NCBI GenBank assembly: GCA_020440025.1
Contig: JAGROX010000014.1
Location: 1-40,281 of the forward strand
Length of the DNA stretch: 40,281 bases
Reading direction: 5' to 3'
DNA from: Verrucomicrobiia bacterium
GTDB lineage: Bacteria > Verrucomicrobiota > Verrucomicrobiia > Verrucomicrobiales > DEV007
The position numbers were made by a program, and so were the translations under genes. The notes beneath the pieces are model-generated. The model did no database searches. It saw only the letters and a program-made list of their open reading frames with translations, and was not told the DNA's origin. How positions within the stretch are numbered: the first letter of the stretch is position 1; each line of letters starts with the position of its first letter. This document shows positions 1 through 27,260 of this stretch, piece after piece.

Positions 1-3000
1 AACTCTCGTCTTCGTAGTCATCGACTCCGACGGCGGGATTGTCGAAATCTCCGTCACCACCGCGCTCGTCGGCATCGGAGCCGTCGACTACCTCGGCATC
101 GAGAGAGGTCCATTCGACATCGGCCTCGTTGATCAGATCCTGACCATCGCGCACCGTGGAGAGAACGGTGGTGTCGTAGGTGAGAGTGATGCGGTCCCCG
201 GCGGCAAGGTCGAAGCCGGAACCCGCCTGAACGATCTGGCCAGCGGTCACTGTGAAGAAGCTGCTAACATCGACACTGCCCGTGCTCAGGGTGGCGGTGA
301 AGCTGCCGAGATCGACGTTCAATTCGGCCGGAAGGAGATCCCGGAAGGTGAGATCAAAGGCGTTGATGTCAGAGGTGTTCTCGATCACCACCTCATAGGT
401 GATGGTGTCGCCAGCGTCGGGATTTGCCGGAGCGGTCGTGATCGATTTCGCGACCGTGACGGTGGGTTCGACAATTTCCACGTCGACGTTGGCCTCGCGG
501 ATGACCTCGTCATCTGCTTCACCATCGTTGTCCACGTCCTCGAGGACCGTCAGGCGACCAAGGTTGTTGACCACATCGCCATCCTGGTTTTCGACCACAT
601 TGACGACCACTGCGTCGATCTCGATCCGAATCTGTCCATCCTCGGGATTGGTTCCTGAGGCATCATTGACGATCTGGCCGAAATCGATCGCGATCTGATC
701 GGTGTAGGTGTCGACGTTGCTGTCGGTCAGCGTTGGGACAACTGAGGCGAAACCGCCGGGGACGGAGGTCGTCAAATTCGAGCCCCCGGTGATGCGAACG
801 GCGCGAATGTCGAGGATACCATTGGCCAACGAAAGGATGTCGGCTACCTGAACGCTGGGCGTGGTGCCTTCCCCGATGGAAGCGGTGAGGACATAGGTTA
901 CCGTTTCTCCGATGGTCAGGTCAGTGATCGTCGGACTGGTGCCATTCGCGGCGGTGGTATGGGCGGCGGAGGTGCTGCCGATGACCTTGGTGAACCCATA
1001 TTGGGGAGAAAGATTGGCCACGACCGTGGTGGAATCCTCGTTTTCGTAGTCATCGGGATTGGTGACTGCGGCGGGATTGTCGAAGTCGCCATCGCCACCG
1101 CGTTCGTCGGCTTGAGTGCCGTCGAGAGAGGTCCACTCGACGTCGGCCTCATTGATCAAGTTCCGCCCGTCGGTGACAGTGGACAGGATGATCGCGTCAT
1201 AGGTGATGGTGATGCTTTCGCCATCGGCTAGGTCGAAGCCCCCCCCGAAATGGGTGATGCTGTTGGCGGTTCGGACAAAGCGACCATCCACCCCAAAGCC
1301 GGACGGCTGCAGCGTGGCGGAGAACGTGGCAGTCTGCAGATTCAGATCGGCCGGCAGGAGGTCCTGGAAAGTGACTTCAAAGGCATCGACCCCGGAGTTG
1401 TTTTCGATGACGACCTGATACGAGATGATATCGCCAGCATTCGGGTTTGCCGGGGCAGTGATCACGGATTTGGTAACCGTGACTTCGGGTTCGACGATCT
1501 CGACGTCGACGGTGTCGGTGATTTCCTGTTGCTCCTGATTGCCATCGCCATCGATATCCTGGAGGAAACGGAGTTGACCGGTGTTGGTCACCACATCGCC
1601 GCTCTGGTTTTCGAGATCGTTGACGACGACGGCTTCGATCAGGATGACGATCTGCTCGTCCTCGGGATTGATGATGAGGGACGGATCGTTGACGATGGTG
1701 TTGAAGTCGATCTGAACACTGTCGTTGTAACCATCGGCACCGAGGGCATCCGAGATGGCGACGTCGGCGTCCCAGGCCCGACTATCGGAGCGGGAGAGGG
1801 CCGCTCCGGCAGTTACGGTGACGTTGCGAATATCGAGGCGTCCATTGGCGATCGAGAGAGTGTCGAGAATCTGGACGGCATCGGTAGTGCCGCGACCGAT
1901 GGTAGCGGTGAGTCGGTAGACGACTGTTTCGCCGATGGTCAGGTCAGTAATGGTGGCGCTGGTTCCCCCGTTGATGCCGGTGTGAGTCGCTGAAGTGCTC
2001 TCGATGCTCTTGGTGAAGGCGTAGACCGGATCGAGATCGACACGGAAGGTCTGCGAGGATTCGACCTCGTAATCGTTCGGGTCGAGTGGCCCTGCCGGAT
2101 TGTCCGGATCGCCGTCGCCGCCTCGCTCATCGGCATTGACACCACTGATGGAGGTCCATTCGACGTCGACCTCGTTGACGAGATCCTGACCATCGCGAAC
2201 TGTCGGGAGTATGGTGGCATCGTAGGTGATCGTGATACGATCTCCCGCTGCCAGAGTGAATCCGGTGCCGACCTGATTGATGTCATCAGTTGTGACCGCA
2301 AACCAGGAGGCCACATTGCTCAAGCCAGATTGGCGGATGGCAGTGAAGCTTCCGGTATCGAGATCGAGCTCGGCCGGGAGGATATCCTGGAAGGTGATGT
2401 CGAAGGCGTCAATGTTTGACCTGTTCTCGATCACGATCTCGTAGCTCACGCTGTCACCGGCATCCGGGTTGGCGGGGATTGAGGTGATCGATTTGGTGGC
2501 GGAGATCGCAGGCTCAACGATCTCTACATCGACGTTGGACTCGCGGACAACGGAGTCGTCGGCGTTGCCGTCGTTGTCCGTATCTTCGAGCACGGTGAGG
2601 CGACCGAGGTTGTTGATGACGTCGCCATCCTGGTTTTCGAGAACATTGACGACTACCGCGTCGATAAAGATGCGGATCTGTTCGTCCTCGGGACCACCGG
2701 AAAGCGTGGGATCATTGACCACGGAACCGAAGTCGATGCGGACCTGATCGTCATAGGTATCCACATTGGAATCGGTGATGACGGGAGTCGAAGAAGTCAC
2801 CATCACGGCGGCCCCGGTTTCGATGCGCACATTGCGGATGTCGAGAATGCCGTTGGTCAGGGCGAGGAAATCCTCGATGATGACGCTGGGCGTGGTGCCA
2901 CGGCCGAGTTGCGCGGTGAGCTGGTAGGTGACGGTCTCGCCGATCACCAGGTCGGTGATGGTGGCAGAGGTGCCAAATGCGGTGCCGGTGTGGCTTTCAG

Positions 3001-6000
3001 AGGTCGAGAAAACCGACTTCGTGAAATCATAGAGCGGGGAGAGTTCGCCGGTGATTTCGGCGGTGTCTTCGTCCTCGTAGTCGTCGACACCGGTGGCGGG
3101 AGTATCGAAATCGCCATCACCGCCGCGTTCGTCAGCGTCGGAACCGTCGGTGGCTTCCGCGTTGAGTGATGTCCACTCGATGTCCACTTCGTTGAGAAGA
3201 CTCTGCCCATCGGTCACCGTGGACAACACGGTCGCGTTGTAGGTGATGGTGATGGATTGTCCCGCCGCGAGATCGAATCCGGTTCCCGCGTGAGTGATGC
3301 CACCGGCAGAGACCGTGAAGAAGCTGGCGACGTTGAACAGATCGCTCCGTTCAGCGATGAAAGATCCGGTATTCAGTGACATCGCGGCCGGCAATTGATC
3401 GCGAAGCGTCAGATCGAAAGCATCGATGTCCGAAGTGTTGGTGATGACGATCTGGTAGCCGACGACATCGCCCGCATCGGCTTCCGTGGTGCCGAGGGGA
3501 ATGGATTTGGCTACCGTGACCGTGGGCTCGACGATCTCCACGTCGACGGTGTCAGTGATGGTGCGGGTGTCATCAGCGTTTCCGTCGTTGTCGCTGTCTT
3601 CGAGGAAGGAAAGAGTGCCGGTATTGGAGACGACATCACCGTCCTGGTTTTCGATGGTGTTGACGACGACCGCCTGAATGAGGACGACGATTTGTTCGTC
3701 GGCTCCGGTACCGGAAGCATCGTTGACGACGGTGCCGAAATCGATCTGGACACTGTCGTTGTAGCCATCGGTGCCGAGAGCATCGGTAATAGAGACATCG
3801 GCATCCCAAGCCCTCGCATCCGATCGAGAAAGAGCTGAGCCAGCCGTCACGGTGACGCTGCGAATGTCGAGACGACCATTGGCAATGTCGAGCGTATCGA
3901 AGATCTGGACCAATGGCGTGGTGCCGCGACCGAGGGTTGCGGTGAGACGATAGGTGACCACTTCGCCGATCGTCAGGTCGGTGATGGTGGCATTGGTCCC
4001 GTTGATGATGCCGGTATGGGCGGCCGAGGTGCTGTCAATGACCTTGGTAAAGGCATAGAGCGGCGAGAGTTCGCCGGTGATTTCGGCGGTATCCTCGTCC
4101 TCGTAGTCGTCGACGCCGGTGGCGGGAGTATCGAAATCGCCATCACCGCCGCGTTCGTCAGCGTCGGAACCGTCGGTGGCTTCCGCGTTGAGTGATGTCC
4201 ATTCGATATCCACTTCGTTCAACAGGCTCTGGCCGTCGGTGACGGTGGACAACACGGTCGCGTTGTAGGTGATGGTGATGGATTGTCCCGCCGCGAGATC
4301 GAATCCGGTTCCCGCGTGAGTGATGCCACCGGCAGTGACCGTGAAGAAGCTGGCGACGTTGAACAGATCGCTCCGTTCAGCGATGAAAGATCCGGTATTC
4401 AGTGACATCGCGGCCGACAATTGATCGCGAAGCGTTAGATCGAAAGCATCGATGTCCGAAGTGTTGGTGATGACGATCTGGTAGCCGACGACATCGCCCG
4501 CATCGGCTTCCGTGGTACCGAGGGGAATGGACTTGGCTACCGTGACCGTGGGCTCGACGATCTCCACGTCGACGGTGTCAGTGATGGTTTGCTGTTCCTG
4601 GATGCCATCGCGATCGATGTCTTCGAGGAAACGTAGTTGGCCGGTGTTGGTGATGACATCGCCATCCTGATTTTCGAGGCTGTTCACCACGACAGCTTGG
4701 ACGAGGATCACGATCTGTTCGGCGGCTCCGGTGCCGGAGGCGTCATTGACGACGGTGCCGAAGTCGATTTGGAGCCTGTCATCATAGCCATCCGTCCCGA
4801 GAGAATCAGTGACAGTGATATCCGCGTCCCAGGCCCGTCCATCCGTTCGCGAGAGGGCGGAACCGGCGGTCACGGTGACATTGCGGATGTCGAGACGACC
4901 GTTGGCAATGTCGAGGGTGTCGAGAATCTGAACCAGATCCGTCGTGCCGCGTCCGATCGTGGCGGTGAGGCGGTAGGTGACGACTTCGCCAATGGTGAGG
5001 TCGGTGATGGTCGGGCTGGTGCCATCAAGGATGCCGGTGTGGCCGGCAGAGGTGCTTTCAATGGTTTTGGTGAACGCGTAGGTCAGATCGGCGCGGAATT
5101 GGGCACTGTCCTCGGCTTCGTAGTCGTTCGGATTGGCGGGGTTGACGGGATTATTGGGATCGCCATCGCCGGTCCTCTCGCCCGCCACGACGCCGTCCAT
5201 GGTGGTCCACTCGATGTCGGCTTCGTTCACGAACAGATCGCCGTCTTTGACGGTCGCGGGGACGGAAACGTTGTAGGTGATGACCACCTCGTCGCCACCG
5301 GCGATGTCGAGAGCGCCCGGGATCGCGGTGATGCTGCCGCCAGCCGTCACAGTAAACAGGGTTGAAACGTCGGCTTGAGAGGGTTGACCCGGATTCAGGG
5401 TCGCGGTGAAGGTTCCGGGAAGGAAAGTCAGTCCAGTCGGCGTTTGATCGATGAAAGTGACATCATAGGCCGTCTCGGCGCTGGTGTTGTCGACCACGAT
5501 CCGGTAACTCACCACGTCGCCGGCATCGGGCGTGGCTTGAATCGCGGAGAATGATTTGTCCACCGTGAGCGTGGGCTCGACAATGGTGATGACGGTATCG
5601 AGATCACCGGTGCTGTCGGCCAACACATTGGTCGTCGTGCCATCTTCATCGGTGTAAGAAAAGACGGCCGTGTTGTTGAGCGTGTCCGTTTCCTGATTGG
5701 TCAGGATGTTTTCCACCCGGAGACGGTAGCGAATCTCAATGGTTCCGTTGTTCAGTCCGTTGGCGGCGCCGGTGTTGTTGAAATCGACAAAATCAAAATC
5801 GAAACGCATCGTCTCGCTGGATGCGGTTCCGGGATCCGTGTGAGTGAAAAACGTGGCGTTCGATTCATCCAGCAGACCGGCCGTTCCGACGGTGATCCCG
5901 GCGCTCGGAGTGACCGTCAGGGAGCCGGCGACAAAGGCAAAACCGGAATCAATGGTGTCCAGAATCCAGGCATCGGGCGAGCCGACCCGGCCTTCCGGCA

Positions 6001-9000
6001 CTTGCAGAGTGATGACGTATTCGACTTCCTCACCGATGGTGAAATTCTTGTCGGCGGGATTTGCCAGCACCTTGCTCAGGACTGGACTCGGGGTGGTGAA
6101 GGCGTCGTTGGCGGAAGTGCTGTAGAGGCGTTCTCCGCTCTCGGTGTTCGGAGTTCCCGATTCGTTGCCGGTGGTGTTGTCGCCGACTCCGTTGTCGGTG
6201 CCGTCGTCCGGCAGGGAACTATAGGCGAGGGTGGCGGTGTTGGTCACCGTTTCGTCAGAATGAATCTGATCGGCGCCGGTGTCACGGACGCGGGCCTGGA
6301 AGGTGATCTGGAAGGATTCGCCGGGGGCGAGTTGATCAATCCGGACATCGATGTTCTGCCCGATGACGGTGTTGGAAACGACGGTCGATCCGCCGGGCAA
6401 TCCGACGACCGTGACTGCTCCCCCCACGATTTCCAGTTCCGCAGGAACGGCGTCTGCGATTCGAAGGTCGAATGCGGTCGCGGTGTTGGCCGCGCTGGAA
6501 GCGACGACGTTCAGCGTGTAGGTGATGAGATCTCCGGCATCGGCGGTGGTCACGCCACCATCCGATTTGGTGAGGGTCAGGACCGGTTCCACCACTGTCA
6601 GGGGAACGGCGAGCGGGCTGCCGAGGTTGACTCCACCCTCGCGCAGTTGCACCGAGTTGGTCAGGACGTCTCCGCGGACATTGCCCACATCGTTCCGAAC
6701 GATGGTGTTGTAGCGGATCACGATGTATTCGGGAGTGGAATCTGTCTCCAGATTGGTGAGGTCGCCGAAATTGAAGGTGACCTGATTGGTCGTGCCGTTG
6801 TAGCTGACTAGGGCGGGATCGAGCGCGTAGGTGGTGCCATCTGCCGGTGGCATCAGAGGATTGCTAGCGACCAGATTGCCAGGTACGGTGAATCCTTCCA
6901 AGGCTATCTCGAGATCATTGGTGGCGGCATCGATCCAGAACAGGCCAGGATCGAGCGTATCGACGAGTTGCAGCTGAGAGTTCAACGCCTGAGGCAGGCG
7001 AATGCGGACCTCATAGCGAACCACTTCGCCGATGGCTCCAGAGACGGTGCCCGCAGTGGAGGTGTCTTGGCTGGTGTGAGCCTCGGAGGTGTCGGTGATC
7101 ACTTTGTCGATCCCAACAGGATTGCCCACCGTGACATTGACAACGGACGAAACGAGGTAGTCGTTGGCAGCGAGGCCGGGATCGGTGGGATCGCCGGTTC
7201 GCTCCACCGCAGTCGTGTAGACGGTGTTGGCGGGGTTGAGATTGACGTTCAAGGCACCGGTGCCGAACGTCAGCGCGGGATTCGCACTCGTGGGATCAAA
7301 CCCGGTGTAAGCTCCTCCACCCGGAGTGTCTGGCAGGCTAGTGAATTCGACTCTGGCGGTGTTCGGGATCACCCTGTCGGTGGGCAGTCCGTCATCGATT
7401 CTGACGGTAACTTCGATCTCGGAGAATTCTCCGACGGCGAGCCGGGCCCAGGTGGCCACTATTTCGCCCTCCGGTCCGCTGGCTGGGAGGAATTGGAGTG
7501 AACTTGCATCCGGAGCAACGCCGATTCCGTTCCAGACGGCGCTGGCTGCCACGTAGGCGACATCGGTGGGTAGCAAGTCGCTCAGGGAGACATTGTAGGC
7601 CTCCGAGACATTCACATTCGAGTTGTTGTTCGAAATGCGAATCCGATAGGTGATTTCCTGGGCTCCCTCGACCGTGGCTACGGAGCCAACGACCGACTTG
7701 GTGACCCGCACATCCGGCTCCACTACGCGGACAGAGATCTGGCTTTGTACCGATTGATCCACCGTATCCAGGGTCCAATGGAGTTCGGCATCGTTGTTTC
7801 GATTATTTCCAATCTGGTTGGCCGTGGTATCGAGAACGACCGCGCGATAGGTAACGACAATGTTTTCAGCGACCGCGTTGTCAGTATTGCTATTGACGAT
7901 AGTGCCGAGACCGGCGACCCCAGCGGTCGCGTAGCCGAGTTCGAGTTGACGGGCGGTGCCATTGAAGTATCCCACCACATCGGAATTCAAATTGCCGGAG
8001 GGCGAACTGAGGCCTGGACTGACGATGATGCTGTCAATGCCGACGAACGCCATGCCGGAGGGCAGGGAATCGATCACCTGTGCTCCGTTCAAGGTCCCTT
8101 CGGGAATGCGAAAAGTCACCTGATAGGTCACCACTTCACCAATCGCGACCTCTCGGTTGCCGTCGGTGTTGTTGGTGTCGTCATGGCTGGTGTTGATGAT
8201 GACTTTGCTAGCAGCCGGCCGAGACATGGTTGCGGTGGCCGTGTCCTGCAGTTCGCCGGGATCGGCAAAATCGAAACCGCCTTCGCTCGCGGCATAGGTC
8301 TGCACTTCGGCAACATTGGTCAGGGTCTCCAGCGAGGTGACGGTGTTCTGTACGACGAGATCGTAGGCGATGACGATGAGATTTTGTCCGCTGGTCCCGT
8401 GGTAGGCATCGAGAGCGCCCTGATTGGCGGCGGGATCGATCAACTCGAGAGGAGTCGAGAGAAGATCGCCGGTATAGTCCACTCCCGAGGTCAGAAGCGC
8501 GCCGTCGCCATAGGAAACGCGGAGATTTGCGCCGCCTCCCGGGATGGCGAAGCCAGCCGGAATGGTGTCGGAGATCGAAACATCGAAGGCTCCGTATTGG
8601 CTGGTCCCAGTGTTTTCCACCACCACGAAAAAGGTGACGGTATCTCCGGCGTCGATGTTGGAGAGATTGGCGTCGATCGCTTGACTGGCCAGTCCATCGG
8701 AAGTGATGGTTCCGGTGAACGCATTGGCGGAGCCGGGCGCGTTGAAGGTGACGCCAGCCGGGCCGACAGGGGCGCTGAACGAACCGGACGGATTTGTCAC
8801 TGAGGTGATGCCCTTTTTGATGTTCAGCTTAGGCTGGACGAGGATGATTTGAGCGATCTCGTCAGTCTCGGTGGACGTTCCCGGAGTGTTTTGCTCGGTT
8901 GAGGCCACCTGATTGGTGAAGAAAAGACGATCCGCAAATTCGCCGTCGATCACGGGAACGGTCACGAGAAGTTCCAAGGTGGTCGTCTGAGAGTCGAAAC

Positions 9001-11374
9001 CATCGCCGGGATGGTAGTCACCGATGTTGATGACGAAGCCATTGGTTGAAGCGAAGGTAGTCTTGTCGATCGATCCGATGATGGAGGTGGTGGAATTGTA
9101 TCCCAGATTGTCGTCGATCCCGCCGTCTCCCAGTTGATCGGGGCCATTCGGTCCGACAAAGGTGTCATTCGGTCCCCAACTGATGCGTCCCGACTGCGTG
9201 AACGAGTCGGTGGCGTGATAGTCGTAGATCTGAGTGGCGTCGATCGACGAGACATCGAAAATCGGCAGGGGAAGGAAGTCCTTGAACTGGAGATTTTCGA
9301 ACTCTGTCAGGGGAAGTGTATAGGTGATACGGTAGGTGACGAGATCACCCGGAGTCACGCCAATGACTGGCTCCGTGGTGGGATTGTTGTCATCGCCAAA
9401 GGGAATGATGTTTCCGTGACTGTAGACACTTTCAACGACTTTGGTGAGGGTGCCGGTGGGAAGTTCGACTCCGGCGCTGGAGTCATCGGTTACCGTGGCC
9501 AGGGCTGCTAAGGTCGTGATGTCTCGATTGGTGCCCGAGATGGTGACGCCGTTGGTCAGGCTGTCTCCCTGGCTGATCTGCTGCTGGCCTCCACTGGTGT
9601 AGGATTCCCTGACCTGGACCCGATAGGTGATGGTTCCCTGGGTAGCTCCGCCGTTAAAGGTGCCGAGATTGGCAGGGAGGATGCCGGTGTCCGGAATGAA
9701 GCCGCCCCGCAAAGCCTCGCCATCGGTGATAAATCCGGAATCGATGAGTTGTTGATAGACATCGAACTGAATGTCGGTGGTGCCATCGACGTTTTCGACC
9801 CAGGTGAAATTGCCGGGATCGAAGTTGACGGAGACACTTGCCCCGTCCATTTGGAAACTGAGAGTGGGAACGATTTCCAGGGCGTCGACCACATTGCTGC
9901 CGTCACCGGGGAGAAAATCCTGGCCGTCGCCGAGCAGGTCATCGACCACCACGTCGGTAAATGCGAAGTAGTCCGAGATCTGGAAGTTCATGGTGTACTC
10001 CAGCACGTCCCGAGGATTCACGGTGCCCCCAACAGCACGGTCGCCTCCGGCAGCAAAGCCGACGCCTTTCTGAATCGCGATGGAGTGCTCTTCGATGATG
10101 TAATCGGTTTCGACATCGCCGAGCAGACCATCGGCATCGAAGCCGGGCAGGGGCCCGGCGTCATCACTGACGGCGTTCCCGTTCCAAGTCCCGGTCACGC
10201 TGGCGTTGTTGTATTCCGGATCGAGATCGTTCTCTTCGCCGCCGACGGGATCGATGATCAGGGTGCCGGATTCTTCGCGGTAGGGAACAAACGCGGTGTA
10301 GGTCACCGTGATCGAGGCTCCCGCATTGGGATCCTGTCCGGTGATGCTGTCGATGGTGATACGGAGGGTGTCATCAGCGGCAGGGACTCCGGTGAGATCA
10401 TCCGTGTTGATGGTCGGCTCCGCGTTGACGGTATAGTTGCGCGGACCGGACGTCCCAGCTCCAAAAGTCACGGACAGATTACCAGTGTAGGCGATGTCAT
10501 CGGGGAGCAGATCCTGGATGACGAGATTGTTGATGGTTTCCCCTTCGGCAATGTTGATCCGAAGCGTGTAGGTCAGCGGGAAATTCGGGCCTGAGGGCAT
10601 CTCGCCCGTGTAGGGGCCGTCGTCCTCGAAAACCGAGGCCGTTTTGAGCAGATCCATCACATAGGGGTAGACGGTATCGGAGCTGAGGTTGCCGAATAGC
10701 GGGGCATCGGCGGGAGCGGCTACTGTTCCGGGATTATCGAGAGCATCCTGACCGAGGGCAAATCCGCCCACTGCCGTGAGTTCATAGGCCTGATTCGGCA
10801 AAATCCCGTCGGCAGTATCGAGACCGGTCGTGACTTGAACGGTTGCGGGGAAATTGGTGGTGGTGAAAGATCCGAAAGGCAGTTCCACGCTGTAGACGTA
10901 TTGACCCACCAGGTCAGGATTGGTGCCCACATCATAAAGAACGGGAGCCGTTCCCGAGCCAGCGCCTCCAAAATAGTCGGAGCTTGGAGCGCCAATGCTG
11001 GTGGCGAACATCGGGTGATCCACCGGGACTCCCGTCGTGATGTCGACTACCTGCCCGTCGGCCGCAATCCGTCCAATGGGATCGACGGAAGCGCCTCCGG
11101 GATTTTCCGCCGCCGCGCCATAGACCGTCACTCCTTTGATCTTGAGTTCGGAAGGGGCCACAAAATCGACATAGGGAGCGTAGCCGGTAGCATCTCCTGT
11201 GTTGTCGAATTCGATCTCAAAACGGATGTCATCATTGACGAACTGATCCTCTGCCACCGTGAGATTTTCAGAGGTGGAAACCGTGACCTCCGGAGCAGCA
11301 TCAAAGAGAACTCGGGGTTCCAAGGCTTCGAACTGGAGAGCGGATTGCGTGCGAGGTTTTTTGGGCATTCTCAT
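1..11374 (-). CDS. Giant LEPR-XLL / DUF11-repeat exoprotein (3' end outside window)
   Basis: The minus-strand frame opening at 11374 (ATG AGA ATG; 11368 is the alternative start) is the same frame read at position 1. I translated most of it and met no stop, so at least about 3,790 residues lie here and the C-terminus is missing. Near the N-terminus is FEALEPRVLFDAAPEV, matching the LEPR-XLL motif known at the start of giant repetitive bacterial exoproteins. The rest is a chain of DUF11-like beta-sandwich domains of about 170 residues, many starting with TKS and ending with an Asn-rich strand (VVNVLENQDGD, INEADVEWTS). The N-terminal domains are divergent. The last five two-domain units are highly alike. 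Acidic loops such as DVDNDGEADD and DADERGGDGDFD recur and resemble calcium sites. The protein is very acidic and I saw no cysteine in the parts translated. Probable role: surface adhesin or envelope fibre. It lies downstream of two HlyD-like genes that probably serve it. Confidence 0.9.
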   Translation of the reverse strand, partial: MRMPKKPRTQSALQFEALEPRVLFDAAPEVTVSTSENLTVAEDQFVNDDIRFEIEFDNTGDATGYAPYVDFVAPSELKIKGVTVYGAAAENPGGASVDPIGRIAADGQVVDITTGVPVDHPMFATSIGAPSSDYFGGAGSGTAPVLYDVGTNPDLVGQYVYSVELPFGSFTTTNFPATVQVTTGLDTADGILPNQAYELTAVGGFALGQDALDNPGTVAAPADAPLFGNLSSDTVYPYVMDLLKTASVFEDDGPYTGEMPSGPNFPLTYTLRINIAEGETINNLVIQDLLPDDIAYTGNLSVTFGAGTSGPRNYTVNAEPTINTDDLTGVPAADDTLRITIDSITGQDPNAGASITVTYTAFVPYREESGTLIIDPVGGEENDLDPEYNNASVTGTWNGNAVSDDAGPLPGFDADGLLGDVETDYIIEEHSIAIQKGVGFAAGGDRAVGGTVNPRDVLEYTMNFQISDYFAFTDVVVDDLLGDGQDFLPGDGSNVVDALEIVPTLSFQMDGASVSVNFDPGNFTWVENVDGTTDIQFDVYQQLIDSGFITDGEALRGGFIPDTGILPANLGTFNGGATQGTITYRVQVRESYTSGGQQQISQGDSLTNGVTISGTNRDITTLAALATVTDDSSAGVELPTGTLTKVVESVYSHGNIIPFGDDNNPTTEPVIGVTPGDLVTYRITYTLPLTEFENLQFKDFLPLPIFDVSSIDATQIYDYHATDSFTQSGRISWGPNDTFVGPNGPDQLGDGGIDDNLGYNSTTSIIGSIDKTTFASTNGFVINIGDYHPGDGFDSQTTTLELLVTVPVIDGEFADRLFFTNQVASTEQNTPGTSTETDEIAQIILVQPKLNIKKGITSVTNPSGSFSAPVGPAGVTFNAPGSANAFTGTITSDGLASQAIDANLSNIDAGDTVTFFVVVENTGTSQYGAFDVSISDTIPAGFAIPGGGANLRVSYGDGALLTSGVDYTGDLLSTPLELIDPAANQGALDAYHGTSGQNLIVIAYDLVVQNTVTSLETLTNVAEVQTYAASEGGFDFADPGELQDTATATMSRPAASKVIINTSHDDTNNTDGNREVAIGEVVTYQVTFRIPEGTLNGAQVIDSLPSGMAFVGIDSIIVSPGLSSPSGNLNSDVVGYFNGTARQLELGYATAGVAGLGTIVNSNTDNAVAENIVVTYRAVVLDTTANQIGNNRNNDAELHWTLDTVDQSVQSQISVRVVEPDVRVTKSVVGSVATVEGAQEITYRIRISNNNSNVNVSEAYNVSLSDLLPTDVAYVAASAVWNGIGVAPDASSLQFLPASGPEGEIVATWARLAVGEFSEIEVTVRIDDGLPTDRVIPNTARVEFTSLPDTPGGGAYTGFDPTSANPALTFGTGALNVNLNPANTVYTTAVERTGDPTDPGLAANDYLVSSVVNVTVGNPVGIDKVITDTSEAHTSQDTSTAGTVSGAIGEVVRYEVRIRLPQALNSQLQLVDTLDPGLFWIDAATNDLEIALEGFTVPGNLVASNPLMPPADGTTYALDPALVSYNGTTNQVTFNFGDLTNLETDSTPEYIVIRYNTIVRNDVGNVRGDVLTNSVQLREGGVNLGSPLAVPLTVVEPVLTLTKSDGGVTTADAGDLITYTLNVVASSAANTATAFDLRIADAVPAELEIVGGAVTVVGLPGGSTVVSNTVIGQNIDVRIDQLAPGESFQITFQARVRDTGADQIHSDETVTNTATLAYSSLPDDGTDNGVGDNTTGNESGTPNTESGERLYSTSANDAFTTPSPVLSKVLANPADKNFTIGEEVEYVITLQVPEGRVGSPDAWILDTIDSGFAFVAGSLTVTPSAGITVGTAGLLDESNATFFTHTDPGTASSETMRFDFDFVDFNNTGAANGLNNGTIEIRYRLRVENILTNQETDTLNNTAVFSYTDEDGTTTNVLADSTGDLDTVITIVEPTLTVDKSFSAIQATPDAGDVVSYRIVVDNTSAETAYDVTFIDQTPTGLTFLPGTFTATLNPGQPSQADVSTLFTVTAGGSITAIPGALDIAGGDEVVITYNVSVPATVKDGDLFVNEADIEWTTMDGVVAGERTGDGDPNNPVNPANPNDYEAEDSAQFRADLTYAFTKTIESTSAGHTGILDGTSPTITDLTIGEVVTYRLTATIGRGTTDLVQILDTLDIANGRLDIRNVTVTAGSALSRTDGRAWDADITVTDSLGTDGYDDRLQIDFGTVVNDASGTGAAEQIVILVQAVVVNSLENQDGDVITNTGQLRFLEDIDRDGIQEQQTITDTVDVEIVEPTVTVAKSIPLGTTEADAGDVVGYQIVITNTSDIDAFDLTLRDQLSAAMSLNTGSFIAERSDLFNVASFFTVTAGGITHAGTGFDLAAGQSITITYNATVLSTVTDGQSLLNEVDIEWTSLNAEATDGSDADERGGDGDFDTPATGVDDYEDEDTAEITGELSPLYAFTKVIDSTSAAHTGIINGTNATITDLTIGEVVTYRLTATLGRGTTPLVQIFDTLDIANGRLDIRSVTVTAGSALSRSDARAWDADVSITDALGTDGYNDSVQIDFGTVVNDASGTGADEQIVVLIQAVVVNTIENQDGDVVSNTGTLSFLEDSDNDGNADDTRTITDTVDVEIVEPTVTVAKSIPLGTTEADAGDVVGYQIVITNTSDIDAFDLTLRDQLPAAMSLNTGSFIAERSDLFNVASFFTVSAGGITHAGTGFDLAAGQSITITYNATVLSTVTDGQSLLNEVDIEWTSLNAEATDGSDADERGGDGDFDTPATGVDDYEDEDTAEITGELSPLYDFTKSVFSTSESHTGTAFGTSATITDLVIGETVTYQLTAQLGRGTTPSVIIEDFLALTNGILDIRNVRIETGAAVMVTSSTPVITDSNVDTYDDQVRIDFGSVVNDPTLSGGPEDEQIRIFIDAVVVNVLENQDGDVINNLGRLTVLEDTDNDGNADDSVVRESNVDVEIVEPAISATKSITSIPANPDAGDSVSYEIVIENRSNIDAFDITFQDILPAELDLDTGSFTAIRQSGLSNVASWFAVTTDDINQVGTGFTLAAGDRITITYDATILPTVRDGQDLVNEVDVEWTSISGVNADERGGDGDPDNPAGPLDPNDYEVESSQTFRVDLDPVYAFTKSIESTSATHTGINGGTSATITDLTIGETVVYRLTATIGRGTTDAVQILDTLSIANGRLDIRNVTVTAGAALSRSDSRAWDADVAISDALGADGYNDSVQIDFNTIVNDPSLIINPEDEQIVILIEAVVVNDLENQSGDVVTNTGQLRFLQDIDGDGNQEQQEITDTVDVEIVEPEVTVTKSVITAPANPNAGDIISYQVVIENNSGVDAFEVTFQDLLPADLNLQTATFSATLQPSGFGVDGRFVRTANSITHFGGGFDLADGESITITYDAIILSTVTDGRNLINEADVEWTSLDGTQADERGGDGDFDNPAAVTNPDDYENEDSTTVVANLSPQYGFTKVIGSTSAAHTTAANGTSPTITDLTIGETVTYVLTASIGEGTTPSVQVADILSLANGILDIRAVRITGGSNLTTSVPGGFASVVPTLTDSNVDTYTDQIAIDFGQIVNDASGTNPEDGQIRIEIDAVVVNVVENQDGDVVNNLGRLTVLEDVDNDGEADDEVIREANVDVEIVEPTVTVAKSITTAPANPDAGDTITYEVVIENTSDINAFDLTFRDLLPAELNVDLGSFTATLSTGSVDVSSFFTVTAGQIVQAGSGFDLAAGDRITLTYDTTVLSTVRDGQDLINEADVEWTSLDAEVVDGSDADERGGDGDFDNPAVGVDDYEDES
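3035..3562 (-). repeat. Near-identical in-frame direct repeat, copy 1
   Basis: This segment is repeated at 4061-4588 at an offset of 1,026 bp, which is 342 codons. By eye there are roughly a dozen or more differences in the first ~200 bp but only about five in the last ~335 bp (3225-3562). It covers the acidic DADERGGDGDFD region and most of the following DUF11-like domain. Confidence 0.9.
4061..4588 (-). repeat. Near-identical in-frame direct repeat, copy 2
   Basis: Partner of 3035-3562, same strand and same frame. The sequence diverges sharply just after 4588, where copy 1 reads into a DNDG-type module and copy 2 into an RDGIQEQQ-type module. The homogenised tract therefore ends inside a module rather than at its border. 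Confidence 0.9.
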
Positions 11375-11529
11375 TTTATCGGATTTGGAGGCAAAGCATC
11401 TGTGAAAAGACACAATAAATATGAAAATTATAGTTTATCAAATAAAATATGATGATTTATGAAAATTAATTATCAGCCCGCGATCGAGCTTGATCAGATG
11501 GGAGAGAGAGGGGGGAAACGCGAAGCTGC
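11375..11529 (-). promoter_or_regulatory. AT-rich leader upstream of the giant gene
   Basis: This 155-bp gap lies between the stop of the M50/HlyD gene and the start of the giant gene. The part next to the giant gene is strikingly AT-rich compared with its surroundings. It holds a perfect TATAAT on the minus strand at 11432-11427, about 53 bases before the ATG, but no convincing -35 box at the usual distance. No clear Shine-Dalgarno sequence precedes the ATG. The giant gene may have its own promoter in addition to readthrough from the upstream genes. Confidence 0.3.
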
Positions 11530-13749
11530 CTACTGGCCGGTCCGGCTTTCGACGAGCATGTCGATGCGACTGCGGACCTCGCGGAGCGCCAAGGCGGCCA
11601 GGCTCTGGTCTCTCGAAGCCTTGGCGACGGCAGTGCCGATCTCGCCTTCCATGAGCAGACCGCTCCCTTCACCCTCGAGATCCGCGTGAATCTCGAATCG
11701 AGGCTTGGTCAGTTCAAAGCTGGCAGTCGGTGAGTTTCCGCCTCCCGAAGCGGCACCATCCGATTTGCGTCGAACCGCGATGGGACCATCGCCCGGAGTG
11801 ATCAGCGCGAAGTGGGTCGGGTCTGTGGTGGCACGCGGCGTCATTTCCCGAAAAGTGGCAAGGGAAGTCTGCCAACGTCCCCGGGGCCGGAATTCCAAGG
11901 GACGTCCGGCGGCCTGAGCTTCGGCAAATTGGTCCCAATCATCTTGAGCGGCGAGGATGACCAGTTCGTTGCGGTCTTCGGCATCGATCGTCAGCAACAG
12001 GGTGCCGGGTTCGATCCAAGTCTCTTCGAGCGATTCCAGATGTCGTCCCAACACTCTTCCCGCACGGGGTGCTCTCACTTCCAGTTTGTCGGTATAGGCG
12101 CGGAGTTCCCTGGCAGACTCTTCCAGAGCCGAAAGGTGTTGGGATTCCGCCTGCCACGAGGCCAGTTGTTGTTGCTCCAAATACAGATCCCGGCGCAGGC
12201 GGCTCCGGTCGATGTCCCGCTCAAGTTGATGAAGACGGGAAACTTCTTCGACGTTTTCCAAGCGAAGTAGCAGATCTCCCTCTTGGACCCTTGCGCCGTC
12301 AGCGACCGCGATTTCGATCAAAAAGCCGGGACACTCGGTCCGAACTTCGCCTCCGCTGATGTCCTGCACCACGGCGGGCGCTTTGACGGAAGGCGTCACT
12401 CGAATCAGGCAAAGCCCACCCACCAGAAGGCCGATGATCACTGTCATCCGAAGGATGAGTCGGGCAGGGCGAAGTCCTTCACCGGCCGCTGATTTCTTTA
12501 GGAAACGAATGGCTCCCGTGATCCCTTGTAGAATCATCGCTGCTCCGGCCACGATGGCGAGAATGAGCCCAGCACCTTGGAACAGAGCCGAAGCGGCGAT
12601 CAGGAGACCCAATACCACCACCACCCGCCAGAAAGCGGCAGCGATTCCATACGCGGTAATCACGAACTTGGGATCGTTCGGACGCAGAGGGAAATTGGCC
12701 TTCTTCAATCCCAGGATCCAACGGCGGAACAACCACTGGGTCATCGACTGGGCTTTCCCATAGAGGTTGGGCACCTCGATCAAGTCGGAGAAAATGTAGT
12801 AGCCGTCGAACCGCATCAGGGGATTCGCGTTGAAAAGCACCGTGGTGATACTGGAGAGGACGACGACCTGATGCAGGGCCGCGCTGAGCGGACCCGGATC
12901 GATCCGGCTCCAGATGATCGCAGCCACGGCGGCGATCAGCAGTTCGCCATAGATTCCGGCTGCGGAGACCGCAATCCGTTGCCACTTGGAGGGAAAGGCG
13001 GTGCTTGACGAGGCATTCACGTAGCCAAGTGGTGTCGTCAGCAACAGCAGGGAAACCCCGGCTTCAGGCACCGCCCCTCCGAACTTGCGGCACACCAGGC
13101 CATGCCAACATTCGTGGAAGACTTTGAGCACGATCCAGAGTCCTCCGAGCATCCACAGATTGCCAAAATCGAAGACACCCGACATTTGGGCCGAGAAGCG
13201 ATCCCACTGATGCTGGACTGATGCGAAGCCCCAGGCGACCACGAGAAGCCAGAAAAGGCCGAATCCGGGACTGACCAGCCAGCCAAACTGGCGAGCAAGA
13301 AAGGCAAAGAAACGGTCAGGGTTTCCCAAGGGTAACCGAAGGAAAAGCACCTGGCCCATCCGTCCCAGCAATTGCTGATTCTCTCGAGGGCGGTTCACCT
13401 CGTCCCAGACACGATGAGCGTGTTCGCTGTCACCGCTGACCACGAGACCGGCATCGATCAACATTCTGACCAGCGAACCTGCTTGGTTGGCATCGAGAGA
13501 CATCTCTTCGCTCCCCGAGGCAAAGTCGGCCACGATTTCCGCGATGGTACGTCGACCATCGAGAGATTTCACAAAATGGTGTTCTCGTCGCCCGAGTCGA
13601 AAAAACTTCCCACTCAGAGGATCCTCCAGCAGGTAGCTTCCTTCGCCGGCGATCTCCTGAAATGTCCAACGCAGATCCTCGCGAATCCGAGGCGTGGTGA
13701 CCTCGATTTCGCGGACCGCAAAGTCCGGGCTGGGAGTGGATGGCTTCAT
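11530..13749 (-). CDS. PqqD-like / M50 site-2 protease / HlyD-like fusion membrane protein
   Basis: This 739-residue protein has three recognisable parts. Residues about 28-105 resemble a PqqD-type domain (LEDPLSGKFFRLG, then a helical segment around DGRRTIAEIVADF). Residues about 160-450 are polytopic and carry the zinc-protease motif HECWH (212-216) and the second M50 signature NPLMRFDG (309-316). After a last membrane helix (about 431-450), residues about 455-640 form a biotinyl-lipoyl/HlyD-like arm with a coiled-coil hairpin and end in a beta-rich region. Similar M50-HlyD proteins are known in planctomycetes and relatives, usually annotated only as peptidase M50. It follows the GAF-HlyD gene by 33 bp and precedes the giant exoprotein gene, so the three probably form one operon. 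Whether it cleaves a substrate or only uses the M50 fold is unknown. Confidence 0.88.
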   Translation of the reverse strand: MKPSTPSPDFAVREIEVTTPRIREDLRWTFQEIAGEGSYLLEDPLSGKFFRLGRREHHFVKSLDGRRTIAEIVADFASGSEEMSLDANQAGSLVRMLIDAGLVVSGDSEHAHRVWDEVNRPRENQQLLGRMGQVLFLRLPLGNPDRFFAFLARQFGWLVSPGFGLFWLLVVAWGFASVQHQWDRFSAQMSGVFDFGNLWMLGGLWIVLKVFHECWHGLVCRKFGGAVPEAGVSLLLLTTPLGYVNASSSTAFPSKWQRIAVSAAGIYGELLIAAVAAIIWSRIDPGPLSAALHQVVVLSSITTVLFNANPLMRFDGYYIFSDLIEVPNLYGKAQSMTQWLFRRWILGLKKANFPLRPNDPKFVITAYGIAAAFWRVVVVLGLLIAASALFQGAGLILAIVAGAAMILQGITGAIRFLKKSAAGEGLRPARLILRMTVIIGLLVGGLCLIRVTPSVKAPAVVQDISGGEVRTECPGFLIEIAVADGARVQEGDLLLRLENVEEVSRLHQLERDIDRSRLRRDLYLEQQQLASWQAESQHLSALEESARELRAYTDKLEVRAPRAGRVLGRHLESLEETWIEPGTLLLTIDAEDRNELVILAAQDDWDQFAEAQAAGRPLEFRPRGRWQTSLATFREMTPRATTDPTHFALITPGDGPIAVRRKSDGAASGGGNSPTASFELTKPRFEIHADLEGEGSGLLMEGEIGTAVAKASRDQSLAALALREVRSRIDMLVESRTGQ

Positions 13750-13782
13750 GGGAGAACGAAAGTCAGTTTCTGAAACGCGCGC

Positions 13783-15786
13783 TTACCAGAGATGGTAGCG
13801 AAGTGCGAGGCAGGCGTCCCTGACCCAGATCCAGGCGAGAGGTCGACGAGGGCCGAAGATCTTGCCTTTCCCTGCCAGACCGGCGCGAAGAACGGCGTCA
13901 GGGTTTTCGATCTCGGCTTCACAGATGAACACATTGGAGTCGCCGCGAAACTCGGACTTGGGAGAGATGCGGAGGATCTTTGCCTCGATCTTGTCGTCGG
14001 TGTAGGCCTCCAGTTTGAGTTGGGCCTCGTCGCCCACTGAGATGAGGGAAATGTCGGTGGCGTTGACCGCGAATTCCACGATCAGTCGATCCAGAGGGCC
14101 GACTTCGAAAAGAGGATCACCCATGTGCAATGGGGCGCCTTCGGATCTTTCCAGATCGCCTTGGAGCACCAGACCATCGATGGGCGAGCGAACCTGCAGA
14201 TGTTCCTGCCGATACTCTAGCCGTTCGATCTCGTGACCCAATCCATCGGCTTCAAATGCAGCCATGCGGGATTCCGCGATTCGATTCGCCGCCAGCGCGG
14301 TGTCTGCTTCTTTCAGGGCGCGTTCCCGACGGGCGATGGCTTCAGCCAACTCGGAACGGACCTCTCGACCATCCAACTCGGCGAGGATTTGCCCCTTTTT
14401 CACGGTTTCACCGGCGCGGATGGTGGATTTTTTGAGAATGCCATCGAACGGAGCGGCGATGACCCGGCGAACCACCGGCTGGAGTTCGCACTTGGTGCCC
14501 ACCGGATAGCGGATCGGAACCAGCAGCGCGGTAATGGCTGCCACGGCCGCAAAAGTCATGAGGCGTCGCTGACTGCCGCTGCCACGTTTCCAGAGTCGAA
14601 GGAATGCCCCGACCGCTGCGCCTGGTTTGGCCCGATGCAGCAATGAGAGCAGGGGAGCGACCTCGGGAGTGGCCGCCTTGATCAGCGATTCCTTTTCTTC
14701 AAAATCTTTCGGTTCTTCGCTCCAGAGAAAGACCCAGCCACCCCGAAGATTTCCCTCGGCATCAATCAGAGGCAGGCAATAGGAGAGCGCGGGATCGAAC
14801 CATTCCTGCAAAGAAACGGCGCCGGATGACTCACTGGGAGCATTGTCTCGCGAGGCGCGACGCGTGAGCAGGGGCTGACGACGATGGATGGCCTCGGAGA
14901 GATGTCCCAGCAGCGCCCGACGTCCGGGTGAATGGGCCTCGGCAGGTCCGGTTTCTCCCGAGATCGCGGCCATTTTGGTGCGGCCGAAACGGCAGACCGC
15001 CAACGCGACGGTGTCACATTCCAGGATCTCTCGAAGATGATTCGCCAGGCGGCGAGAGCATTCGGCAAAGTCCGTGCCGCCCTCGGATGACGCCAGCATT
15101 TCCACGAAAGCGGCCACTTTCCCAAATCGGGATCGAATGCGTTCGCTGTCGGATCGAGTTTGGTCAAGGATGCGTAGTAAGCCCGTTAACTGAAGCGCAG
15201 CGAGGGCGCTGGCCTCACCCGTGGGCTGATGAGCATCCTGAACTCGGCAGAGGCAACAGGTGACGATGTCTCCTTCAAAAACAGGCACGGCCTGCACCTG
15301 ACAAGCCTGACCGGCTAGCTCAGAGGTTTCGATCTCGGGTTTCATCGAGCGCACCGCAGAAATCGCCGCGGCCTGGCTGGCAATCAGGACGAGTTCTCCC
15401 GAAGCCTGGTGATAGCGTTCGTGGAGCGCGGGCCCCACGGCGATCGATTCAGGCGTCAAGACTGGCGCCGGGCGTTCCTCGTCGGTGACGGATTCCTCAC
15501 GAGAAAGTGCGACGGAATCTTCGACCCGGTAGATGACCCACCCCCAACCGCCGTGCAGTTTTTGCAGCGCTTCCAGAGTGGCGGAAAGCAAGCGAGGCTG
15601 AGAGAGATTGGTCAAATGCCCCAACACTTGGGGCGGAATCGCTGCCGGGACGTTCTCGCGAACGGGCGCCGAAATCGATTCCGCAGCTCCAGAGGGAGCC
15701 AACGAGACCTCTCCAAGGGAGACCAGTCGCGAGGATCCAGAGCGAGAGGGGATCTGTTTGATTCGAATGGGAGGAGCGTCAGCCAT
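13783..15786 (-). CDS. GAF-domain membrane-fusion (HlyD-like) protein
   Basis: This is a 667-residue protein. The first ~400 residues are predicted cytoplasmic, and about 240-380 look like a GAF-type sensor domain (FAECSRRLANHLREILECDTVALAVCRF, shown here as a family impression rather than a profile hit). A single membrane helix follows (about 408-425, TFAAVAAITALLVPI). Residues about 440-545 are a biotinyl-lipoyl domain with a short coiled-coil hairpin (APFDGIL then VRSPIDGLVLQGDL), followed by the beta-barrel of membrane-fusion proteins to the end. The usual HlyD-type adaptor has only a short cytoplasmic tail, so the large sensor part is unusual. First gene of the apparent operon with the M50-HlyD and giant genes. 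A sigma70-like promoter lies directly upstream. Confidence 0.85.
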   Translation of the reverse strand: MADAPPIRIKQIPSRSGSSRLVSLGEVSLAPSGAAESISAPVRENVPAAIPPQVLGHLTNLSQPRLLSATLEALQKLHGGWGWVIYRVEDSVALSREESVTDEERPAPVLTPESIAVGPALHERYHQASGELVLIASQAAAISAVRSMKPEIETSELAGQACQVQAVPVFEGDIVTCCLCRVQDAHQPTGEASALAALQLTGLLRILDQTRSDSERIRSRFGKVAAFVEMLASSEGGTDFAECSRRLANHLREILECDTVALAVCRFGRTKMAAISGETGPAEAHSPGRRALLGHLSEAIHRRQPLLTRRASRDNAPSESSGAVSLQEWFDPALSYCLPLIDAEGNLRGGWVFLWSEEPKDFEEKESLIKAATPEVAPLLSLLHRAKPGAAVGAFLRLWKRGSGSQRRLMTFAAVAAITALLVPIRYPVGTKCELQPVVRRVIAAPFDGILKKSTIRAGETVKKGQILAELDGREVRSELAEAIARRERALKEADTALAANRIAESRMAAFEADGLGHEIERLEYRQEHLQVRSPIDGLVLQGDLERSEGAPLHMGDPLFEVGPLDRLIVEFAVNATDISLISVGDEAQLKLEAYTDDKIEAKILRISPKSEFRGDSNVFICEAEIENPDAVLRAGLAGKGKIFGPRRPLAWIWVRDACLALRYHLW

Positions 15787-15809: not shown

Positions 15810-15837
15810 ATTATAATACCAGTATTTAAGAAATCAA
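15810..15837 (-). promoter_or_regulatory. Sigma70-like promoter of the secretion/giant-protein operon
   Basis: On the minus strand, TTGATT (15837-15832) is followed after 16 bases by a perfect TATAAT (15815-15810), with the ATG of the GAF-HlyD gene 23 bases further on. The surrounding DNA is AT-rich in an otherwise GC-rich region. The implied 5' leader is short, about 15-18 bases. The 145-bp intergenic region is shared with the divergent cbpA-like gene. Confidence 0.55.
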
Positions 15838-15931: not shown

Positions 15932-16924
15932 ATGGCGGTAAAATTTCGAGATTATTACGAAGTTCTGGGCGTCAATCGCGACGCCAGTCACGATGAAATC
16001 AGAAAGGCCTTCCGGAAACTGGCTCGGAAGTACCATCCTGACGTGGCCGAAGACAAATCGACGGCGGAGGAGAAGTTCAAGGAGTTGAACGAGGCCTACG
16101 AGGTACTTGGGGACACCCAAAAGCGGGAAACCTACGACGCGCTCGGTCCGGGATGGGAAGATGGCGGGGATTTCCGCAGGCCTCCGGGCGGCAGAGCCTC
16201 TGCTCATCACTCCTCCTACCCGGGGCAGGGCGGACAGGAATTTCATTTTGGCGGCAGCACGGGCTTCAGTGACTTTTTCGAAAGCATGTTCGGCTCACGG
16301 ACTGCTGGAGATCCCTTTGGAGCCTTTGGCGGATTTCAACGCGACTCCGGGCGGAACGACATGCCCAGTCGCGGCAGTGACATTGAATCTGACTTACTGG
16401 TGAAGCTCGAGGAAGTGATGACCGGAGCCGAACGCCAACTGCGCATGCGCCGACCCGATGGTAGCGGCGGCACCAAGGAGAGCTCTCTCAAAGTCCACAT
16501 TCCCAAAGGTATCGCTCAGGGACAGTTGATTCGCTGCGCCGGGATCGGTGAGCCCGGCAGGAATGGGGGCGATCCCGGCGACCTGTTTCTGCGGGTGAAG
16601 TTGGAGCGCCACCCACTCTATGAGGTGCGCGGAGCGGATCTGCACATGGAACTCGAACTGGCCCCTTGGGAGGCGGTGCTCGGATCCAGTGTTCCGCTGA
16701 AGACCCTGCACGGTCCCCTGAATCTGAAAATTCCCGTCGGCACCCAGCCCGGCACTCAGTTGCGACTGCGCGGTCGAGGACTACCCGAACACGCGGATCG
16801 TTTCGGTGATCTCTACATCGACATTCGCGTCCGCATTCCCGAGGAAATCAGCGACGAGGAGCGCAAGCAATGGGAAGCACTCGCTGCGGTCTCGACATTT
16901 CGACCTCGCGCCAGCCAGACCTGA
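15932..16924 (+). CDS. cbpA: DnaJ-class co-chaperone, CbpA-like
   Basis: This 330-residue protein begins with a J-domain (1-70) holding the HPD motif at 35-37, which stimulates the ATPase of DnaK. A Gly/Phe/Ser-rich linker (about 75-145) follows. There is no CxxCxGxG zinc-finger cluster, so it is of the CbpA/type-II rather than the DnaJ/type-I kind. The C-terminal two-part substrate-binding domain runs from about 150 to 318. A GGAG lies just before the start at 15932. It is transcribed away from the export operon and converges on bioB, with a hairpin between them. Confidence 0.92.
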
Positions 16925-25853: not shown

Positions 25854-27260
25854 TTACATCCGCTTGGCCTGGCCCGGAAGCTGCAGGGCACCTGCCCGCC
25901 ACGGGTGATTCGTTCCGAGGAGTTGATAGGTCAGAAACCAGGCGAGCAGCAGCAAGGCGATTGCGATCGTGGCGACGAATGCCGCGATCAAATCGGGTTC
26001 GAAATCGAGTCGATCAGAAAAGGTGCGAATTAGCTGAGTCGCCGGAAGCAATATCATCAGGATCACTATTGCAGGAATGCCGAAACCTCGTCTCAGGATA
26101 AGAGGTATCCCAAGGAGGGCGATTGCCGATGAGGCGATTGCCAGACCGAGATCGGGCCACGCGGGGGTTGTCGAGAAAATCAATTTGAAAACAGCACTGG
26201 CCGCGAAGATGAAAAAAAGCGAAAAGGTGATGGGCCAGAAAATGAGATAGTGAGTGATGGTCCGTCTGGTCAACGGGAGCGATCGCAAGTTTCGCAGTTG
26301 GCCGATGGTGGTAAACACCAAAATGAAGCTCAGGATCGGCACGATGAAGGACAATTGTCCTGTCATGATCGAGAGATCCGGACCTTTCTCGACCAGATTG
26401 GTGTCCGACATCTCCTTGAAAACTCCGATCTGGGATGTCTGACCGAGCATGAAAGACATGAAAATCCAGTTGAACGTCAGAATCGCGAGGCCCATCAGTG
26501 CCGCTCGAGAGCCGAATTGGAACATGTGTAATGGGATGCCGCCGAATCCTCGTATCTGGGAAATGGCGTTCGGATCTCGTGATGTTTTCGAAGCGCGATT
26601 CGGTTTCGCGTTTTCACTGAATCGTTCCACGCGTCGCTGCACCAGGATGTCGGCGCGGAACCAACCCGCCACGGTGGCGACTGCAAGAAGCGTCCCGACG
26701 ATCCACATTAGAGGGGTCAATTCATCAAATTCGTTGGGGATCGCCTGAGCCATGAAAATGGATCCGGGAATCGAAATGCCCCAGAGTACTGCAAACAAGT
26801 TGGCTCGGATGTAGTCCCAAGTGGAGTTGATGCCGACCAGCTGATGGTGCAGGCCGGTCAATGCGAAAAAGACGCCCCCCAACAGAAGGGTCTGAGCGAT
26901 TCCAGCGATGAGGATGCGCTCGGTGGTGATGTGATGCGCGGTGCCGAAGAGTTGGTTGCCGACGATGCTGAGAGCCAGAGCCAAAAGGAACCACAGGGTC
27001 GGAAATTCCAAGGCGACGAATCGCCACGCTCTGGAGAGGTCTTTTGCTCGTAAGGGCAGGGCCAACAGGGTCCGGGTGAGGGTGGCTCCATGCCGGTTGA
27101 GATGGGCGACGAGGATGAGGGCGCTGCCTCCGAGCACGGAAGCGAGGGAGGTCCATTTTCCGAATTGCCAGGACAATATCAGCGCGCCGACATGGGTGCA
27201 GAACCCCAGTAGGTAGGCCCAACCGTAGCGTCGGAAGTAGTCAAAGATGATCGCCTTCAT
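25854..27260 (-). CDS. ABC transporter permease
   Basis: A 468-residue protein made mostly of membrane helices, with about ten to twelve hydrophobic segments (e.g. ILSFILVFTTIG, FWPITFSLFFIFAASAVF, FVATIAIALLLLAWFL). The start overlaps the stop of the ATPase gene by 4 bp, showing translational coupling. Together with a GntR regulator this resembles the YtrA-type operons of Firmicutes. The transported substrate cannot be read from the sequence. Confidence 0.85.
   Translation of the reverse strand: MKAIIFDYFRRYGWAYLLGFCTHVGALILSWQFGKWTSLASVLGGSALILVAHLNRHGATLTRTLLALPLRAKDLSRAWRFVALEFPTLWFLLALALSIVGNQLFGTAHHITTERILIAGIAQTLLLGGVFFALTGLHHQLVGINSTWDYIRANLFAVLWGISIPGSIFMAQAIPNEFDELTPLMWIVGTLLAVATVAGWFRADILVQRRVERFSENAKPNRASKTSRDPNAISQIRGFGGIPLHMFQFGSRAALMGLAILTFNWIFMSFMLGQTSQIGVFKEMSDTNLVEKGPDLSIMTGQLSFIVPILSFILVFTTIGQLRNLRSLPLTRRTITHYLIFWPITFSLFFIFAASAVFKLIFSTTPAWPDLGLAIASSAIALLGIPLILRRGFGIPAIVILMILLPATQLIRTFSDRLDFEPDLIAAFVATIAIALLLLAWFLTYQLLGTNHPWRAGALQLPGQAKRM

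Follow-up and report, generated by a model that had tools for sequence, protein, structure and literature searches.

Genes of the window and the probable remainder of the operon

The DNA considered here is a stretch of 40,281 nucleotides from a Verrucomicrobiia bacterium (assembly GCA_020440025.1, contig JAGROX010000014.1). It is referred to as the window and covers positions 1-40281 of its contig (C134 of its own genome, G000), which is 41,475 bp long. Three minus-strand open reading frames lie at its beginning, encoding a GAF-HlyD protein (13783-15786, 667 amino acids, aa), a PqqD-M50-HlyD protein (11530-13749, 739 aa) and the 5′ part of a giant LEPR-XLL protein (2-11413, 3804 aa visible). 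Sequence comparisons indicate that these genes very probably belong to a widespread cassette acting as a dedicated exporter of neighbouring LEPR-XLL giants. An earlier sequence-only reading had described the three genes correctly, including the 33-bp gap between the first two; its gap of 155 bp before the giant holds for an ATG start at 11374 and shrinks to 116 bp with a GTG start. The "one strong promoter" of that reading corresponds to a sigma-70-like match upstream of the GAF-HlyD gene (15810-15837, minus strand, TTGATT-16-TATAAT), which reaches 10/12 in a consensus scan, although such scans are weak evidence.

The HlyD arms assigned to both smaller proteins are of unequal quality. The profile scores 74.7 bits in the GAF-HlyD protein, where the adaptor occupies about 13879-14463, and a marginal 22.0 bits in the M50-HlyD protein (adaptor part at 11635-12384). 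In the AlphaFold models, the confident adaptor part of the former matches MacA/MexA and that of the latter (model pLDDT 79) matches MexA. The GAF, PqqD and M50 labels are undetected or below threshold in the window proteins themselves but are present in most members of their families. GAF is found in 28/34 members of the first family alignment (GAF-like N-terminal part at about 14722-15069) and PqqD in 31/45 of the second (residues 17-101, 13447-13701), both being below detection in the window proteins; the second family profile matches the PqqD structure 3g2b weakly (E 0.008). The M50 core (12802-13134) scores 22.9 bits against a Pfam gathering cut-off of 27.2 and is matched in 41/45 family members. 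Both S2P/M50 motifs, HExxH (here HECWH) and NPxxxFDG (NPLMRFDG), are found in the window protein, and the catalytic residues H212, E213, H216, N309, P310 and D315 are invariant among 24 relatives and again among 45 sequences, of which 44 belong to other phyla. Given these residues, the M50 core is a plausible candidate for processing of the giant, and the PqqD homology in the family makes it plausible that the PqqD-like domain reads the LEPR-XLL leader.

The third gene had been called a giant LEPR-XLL protein, and it belongs to this family by the curated cut-off (NF012209, 20.6 bits against 17). Its leader, FEALEPRVLFDAAP, is encoded at 11291-11338, and DUF11/isopeptide-type repeats follow. 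The frame is open at the contig edge, and its truncation is due to assembly and not to biology. The genome holds three accessory SecA-like copies in a SecA-like profile search, one of which (753 bits) is located on contig C461. At its start, this contig encodes the final 1435 residues of a giant; this giant and the one in the window have near-identical repeats, with 99-mers in common. The contig continues on the same strand with a TolC-like gene (C461 4398-6290; OEP domain, 83.7 bits), a gene for a SecA-like ATPase of 679 aa (6406-8445) and the third HlyD gene of the set (8476-9339). In a congener (G003), a single contig carries GAF-HlyD, M50-HlyD, a 5330-aa LEPR giant, TolC-like, SecA-like and HlyD genes, with no ABC (ATP-binding cassette) transporter with an exporter membrane domain in the operon. 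The break between the window and C461 is most readily explained by the assembly having broken within repeats, because the C461 genes match this operon in order and at 72-81% identity (76% for the C-terminus of the giant).

In the best explanation, the window holds the first half of a single operon of six genes: GAF-HlyD, PqqD-M50-HlyD, LEPR-XLL giant, TolC-like, SecA-like and HlyD. Taking the window at face value, with neither outer-membrane partner nor ATPase, was abandoned since the contig breaks inside the giant gene. The sequence-only reading rightly saw no TolC-type gene in the window, but one lies just past the contig break, and the outer-membrane partner that it had proposed to seek downstream of the giant is found there in both C461 and G003. 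The SecA-like ATPase and the third HlyD, as well as the TolC-like partner itself and the previously described locus discussed below, were not foreseen, and its interpretation is in this respect only partly supported.

Occurrence of the cassette and of LEPR-XLL proteins

Accessory SecA occurs in 17 of 241 genomes of the phylum, with scores of 621-1065 bits; the matches ranked next are mostly to housekeeping SecA and reach 412 bits at most. LEPR proteins in frames of at least 640 aa are present in 15 of these 17 genomes versus none of the other 224, among which four weak matches lie in shorter frames. The association gives a Fisher p of 5e-22, or 2e-18 with all weak matches, in tests that ignore shared ancestry. 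LEPR matches in tiny frames (G045, G078 and G109, with G168 borderline) are probably due to chance, and the statistics were computed with and without them. Within genera, SecA and LEPR are present or absent together, as in g46 (G189 versus G134), g77 (G142 and G235 versus G077) and g39 (G089 versus G098 and G157). Among 187 Gammaproteobacteria, LEPR is found in 18 genomes, M50-HlyD in 29 and both in 16; all 12 genomes whose M50-HlyD match exceeds 600 bits have LEPR.

A scan of named genomes yields 80 M50-HlyD loci, mainly from Alpha-, Beta- and Gammaproteobacteria, with deltaproteobacterial lineages and one genome each of Nitrospiraceae, Omnitrophota and Rokubacteria. The 48 loci of at least 20 kb contain GAF-HlyD in 48, SecA-like in 47 and HlyD in 37 cases, and the order GAF-HlyD/M50/SecA is conserved in 47-48 of them; these counts were made on six-frame open reading frames, since antisense frames can otherwise mask genes, such as the TolC-like gene of G003. 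LEPR matches are found in 37 of the 39 named cassette genomes searched. Where giant and cassette share a contig, they lie within 8 kb in 31/33 cases, mostly about 2 kb apart and on the same strand, the giants having open frames of up to 13,738 aa; chance would place a giant within 8 kb at the order of 1% (our own estimate for random placement in a 5-Mb genome). Annotated plasmid records list giant, DUF3467, GAF-HlyD, PqqD/M50, SecA, HlyD and TolC, although not every gene in each. An E. coli plasmid (NZ_CP081687, 4830-24581) carries a Bap-like giant of 4459 aa with the leader FALESRQLFDGAA, together with TolC-like, two HlyD and M50-HlyD genes; cassette genes occur in 24/5426 complete E. coli genomes. 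The sequence-only reading had put forward co-occurrence of M50-HlyD, GAF-HlyD and LEPR-XLL proteins as a check, and the conserved neighbourhood seen across phyla strongly supports its central proposal of a dedicated non-ABC export or display system for the giant.

It might be argued that giant and cassette are linked without any common function, moving as one mobile or genomic island. Several cassettes are indeed on plasmids, and lateral transfer of the locus has been inferred (PMC4452313). However, gene order, mostly common strand and spacing of about 2 kb recur in cassettes that have diverged to 40-65% identity across phyla, and otherwise unrelated giants share a leader, whereas neutral co-transfer would keep neither order nor leader. 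An island of this kind is a very improbable explanation.

The genome of the window has two more cassettes, one on C158 and one on C243, both with a LEPR giant of their own nearby. The M50-HlyD gene on C243 (about 9796-11960), the third in the genome, is split between frames of 373 and 447 aa, either through an error in sequencing or because the gene is broken. A complete LEPR-XLL protein of 1569 aa is encoded on C130 (8875-13584), a 13.8-kb contig with no cassette; the tag is thus not limited to giants, and orphan cargo of this kind may be served by a cassette in trans. The longest LEPR open frames reach 20,466, 19,216, 18,984 and 18,189 codons, and LEPR-XLL giants are among the largest bacterial proteins. 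Many proteobacterial loci have a small, conserved DUF3467 gene between giant and GAF-HlyD (L151 40970-41311; L152 16247-16567; L154 17766-18062).

The window contains other genes of note. A DnaJ-type chaperone gene (15932-16924) is divergent from the cassette, and a subtilase-like protein of 1093 aa with an immunoglobulin-like domain is encoded at 33819-37100. The earlier statement that the window lacks an ABC ATPase is not correct, as a NodI/PmtA-like ABC nucleotide-binding domain is encoded at 27257-28177. It lies 11 kb from the cassette, does not have type-I-exporter architecture and probably belongs to an unrelated ABC-2-type transporter.

The leader, the ATPase and the proposed route of export

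The N-termini of the giants share the leader consensus xE-A-LEPR-x-LL-S/D-A. It was derived from 88 N-termini, in which a few loci are counted twice and one (L171) was picked wrongly from a coiled-coil frame, with hardly any effect on the counts. The search pattern forced the leucine-like residue, E/D, R and the hydrophobic pair, and their conservation is partly by construction. Among unforced positions, E occupies -2 in 88%, S or A +7 in 87%, A +8 in 85% and D +9 in 68%; at +2, P is present in 80% although eight residues were permitted. The stretch before the motif is often basic, not hydrophobic, and a simple hydropathy test finds no Sec-like hydrophobic core in 82/88 leaders. The leader is present on every real giant with a visible start beside the named cassettes (n=13), and the strict motif is found in 0/510 background open reading frames. 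Large frames without the motif were judged by eye to be apparent antisense frames in G+C-rich DNA or unrelated enzymes. In the giants of four window-type loci (window, G003, G027 and G033), D replaces the usual S/A (LFDAAP, LFDGSP), as in leaders of the E. coli type. The difference between D and S/A may reflect pairing of leader and machine, within a small number of loci.

The domain matches of the cassette ATPase unmistakably mark it as a SecA homologue. The six proteins tested match DEAD, P-loop and preprotein cross-linking (PP_bind) as well as generic helicase families, and none of the six matches the Pfam helical scaffold/wing family. The helical scaffold/wing is the part of SecA known to engage SecY. 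The SecA-like proteins are about 640-740 aa long, with housekeeping copies in frames of about 1000 aa (679 aa on C461, while the housekeeping copy on C99 sits in an open frame of 1061 aa), and by these matches they are not canonical full-length SecA with scaffold/wing and C-terminal parts. This evidence bears on the idea that the SecA-like ATPase hands the giant to SecYEG as usual, the HlyD, TolC and M50 parts acting only after the periplasm is reached. The clear SecA homology favours such a route; the shorter, wing-less ATPase and a leader that is not Sec-like tell against it, and it is considered unlikely.

For the six-gene operon as a whole, export of the giant surface protein by an ABC-free system related to type I secretion is a highly probable explanation, and the machine most likely recognises the N-terminal leader. 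In the proposed mechanism, the PqqD-like domain would grip the leader on the cytosolic side, and the M50 core would serve as inner-membrane gate, as leader cleaver or as both. The truncated SecA-like ATPase would then thread the unfolded giant chain into a conduit made of the HlyD parts and the TolC-like protein, giving a giant adhesin-like fibre outside the cell, while GAF may sense the state of the system. We infer each of these steps (leader reading, gating or cleavage, push and conduit) separately, and each is held tentatively, as a possibility that at best is evenly balanced. Likewise, a distinct one-step secretion class serving the largest proteins of bacteria, with the leader read by a PqqD-like/S2P protease, a push by a wing-less SecA and passage through HlyD and TolC with neither ABC transporter nor SecYEG, has about equal chances of being right or wrong.

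Several observations weigh against an exporter of this composition. The join of C134 to C461 is deduced from repeats and synteny. Cassettes on an E. coli plasmid and a Thalassospira plasmid have no linked SecA-like gene, and the motor is either shared or replaceable because such SecA-less loci exist. One gammaproteobacterial genome (G494) is a real exception, being LEPR-positive with no M50-HlyD match; a second such genome (G382) shows its LEPR protein on a 3-kb contig only. Some cassettes have no visible giant. When the cassette genomes without NF012209 matches were read individually, several proved to have adjacent variant leaders (LENRIVLDAA, LEQRVVLDAA, LEQRQLLAGG, LEELEPRLLLSGG), and in others the giants are cut by contig ends.

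A last point concerns the C-terminus. Cargo of ABC type I export usually carries an RTX-type C-terminal region as its signal. Some LEPR giants have such a region, for example a Vibrio protein (PMC10868602), and the giant might accordingly leave by an unlinked ABC type I exporter or by general Sec, the cassette merely processing, anchoring or sensing at the envelope. Type I exporters may be unlinked to their cargo, M50 proteases act on membrane-linked substrates, and signal sensing is a function of GAF domains. Conversely, no ABC gene lies inside any of the 80 named-genome cassettes, and one is found in the flanks of only five loci; the cassette brings an ATPase and adaptors of its own, often together with a TolC-like channel, which amount to a complete conduit, and the leaders are without a Sec-like hydrophobic core. 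Export by another route is improbable, and the cassette is preferred as the exporter.

Relation to known systems

A locus consisting of a secondary SecA, M50/HlyD, GAF/HlyD, HlyD and sometimes OEP/TolC was described by Kamneva, Poudel and Ward in 2015 (PMC4452313), who suggested that SecA is the ATPase and M50 the pore, and stated that the role of the locus was "completely unknown". The operon described here has the M50/HlyD, GAF/HlyD and HlyD genes of this locus type, and a secondary SecA_DEAD gene on C461, syntenic in G003, through the deduced join to the window. The text of that paper has no substrate, leader, PqqD domain or giant; cargo, leader, operon link and SecA-less variants are added here. 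No paper linking the locus to LEPR-XLL giants was found in a search that lay outside preprints and most subscription journals, so that priority is not certain; as far as this literature goes, the cargo of the 2015 locus is the new element. The LEPR-XLL family (NF012209) is a sequence family only, and the papers found give no export route for it. The secretion-like locus of 2015 is supplied with a cargo and a candidate recognition tag, and LEPR-XLL giants with a very probable exporter. Two features are predicted: a motor of the SecA family that acts together with HlyD and TolC components, and a membrane protease that reads the leader. Substrate and mechanism are directly testable, as the locus type is present in the laboratory organism Methylobacterium extorquens AM1 (PMC4452313) and a relative of it on E. 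coli plasmids.

Three known systems are comparable. Type I secretion (HlyB/HlyD/TolC) shares HlyD-type adaptors (here in three proteins), a TolC-type channel and large, repetitive, adhesin-like cargo. Here there is no ABC transporter, SecA-like and M50 proteins are present instead, and the candidate signal is an N-terminal leader and not a C-terminal one; the system is set beside type I secretion and not within it because the defining ABC transporter is missing. The accessory SecA2 systems of Gram-positive bacteria also dedicate a second SecA to large surface adhesins, whereas the cassette SecA is shorter, has no helical wing, occurs in diderms and lies beside HlyD and TolC parts. Daptide and YydH/LiaK-type M50 peptide-maturation proteases (NF041824, NF058609) share the combination of PqqD-like domain and M50 (residues 31-407). 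In contrast to them, the M50 protein scores far below the equivalog cut-offs (135.9 versus 300 bits and 20.2 versus 225 bits, respectively), is fused to an HlyD adaptor and is linked to giants, not peptides.

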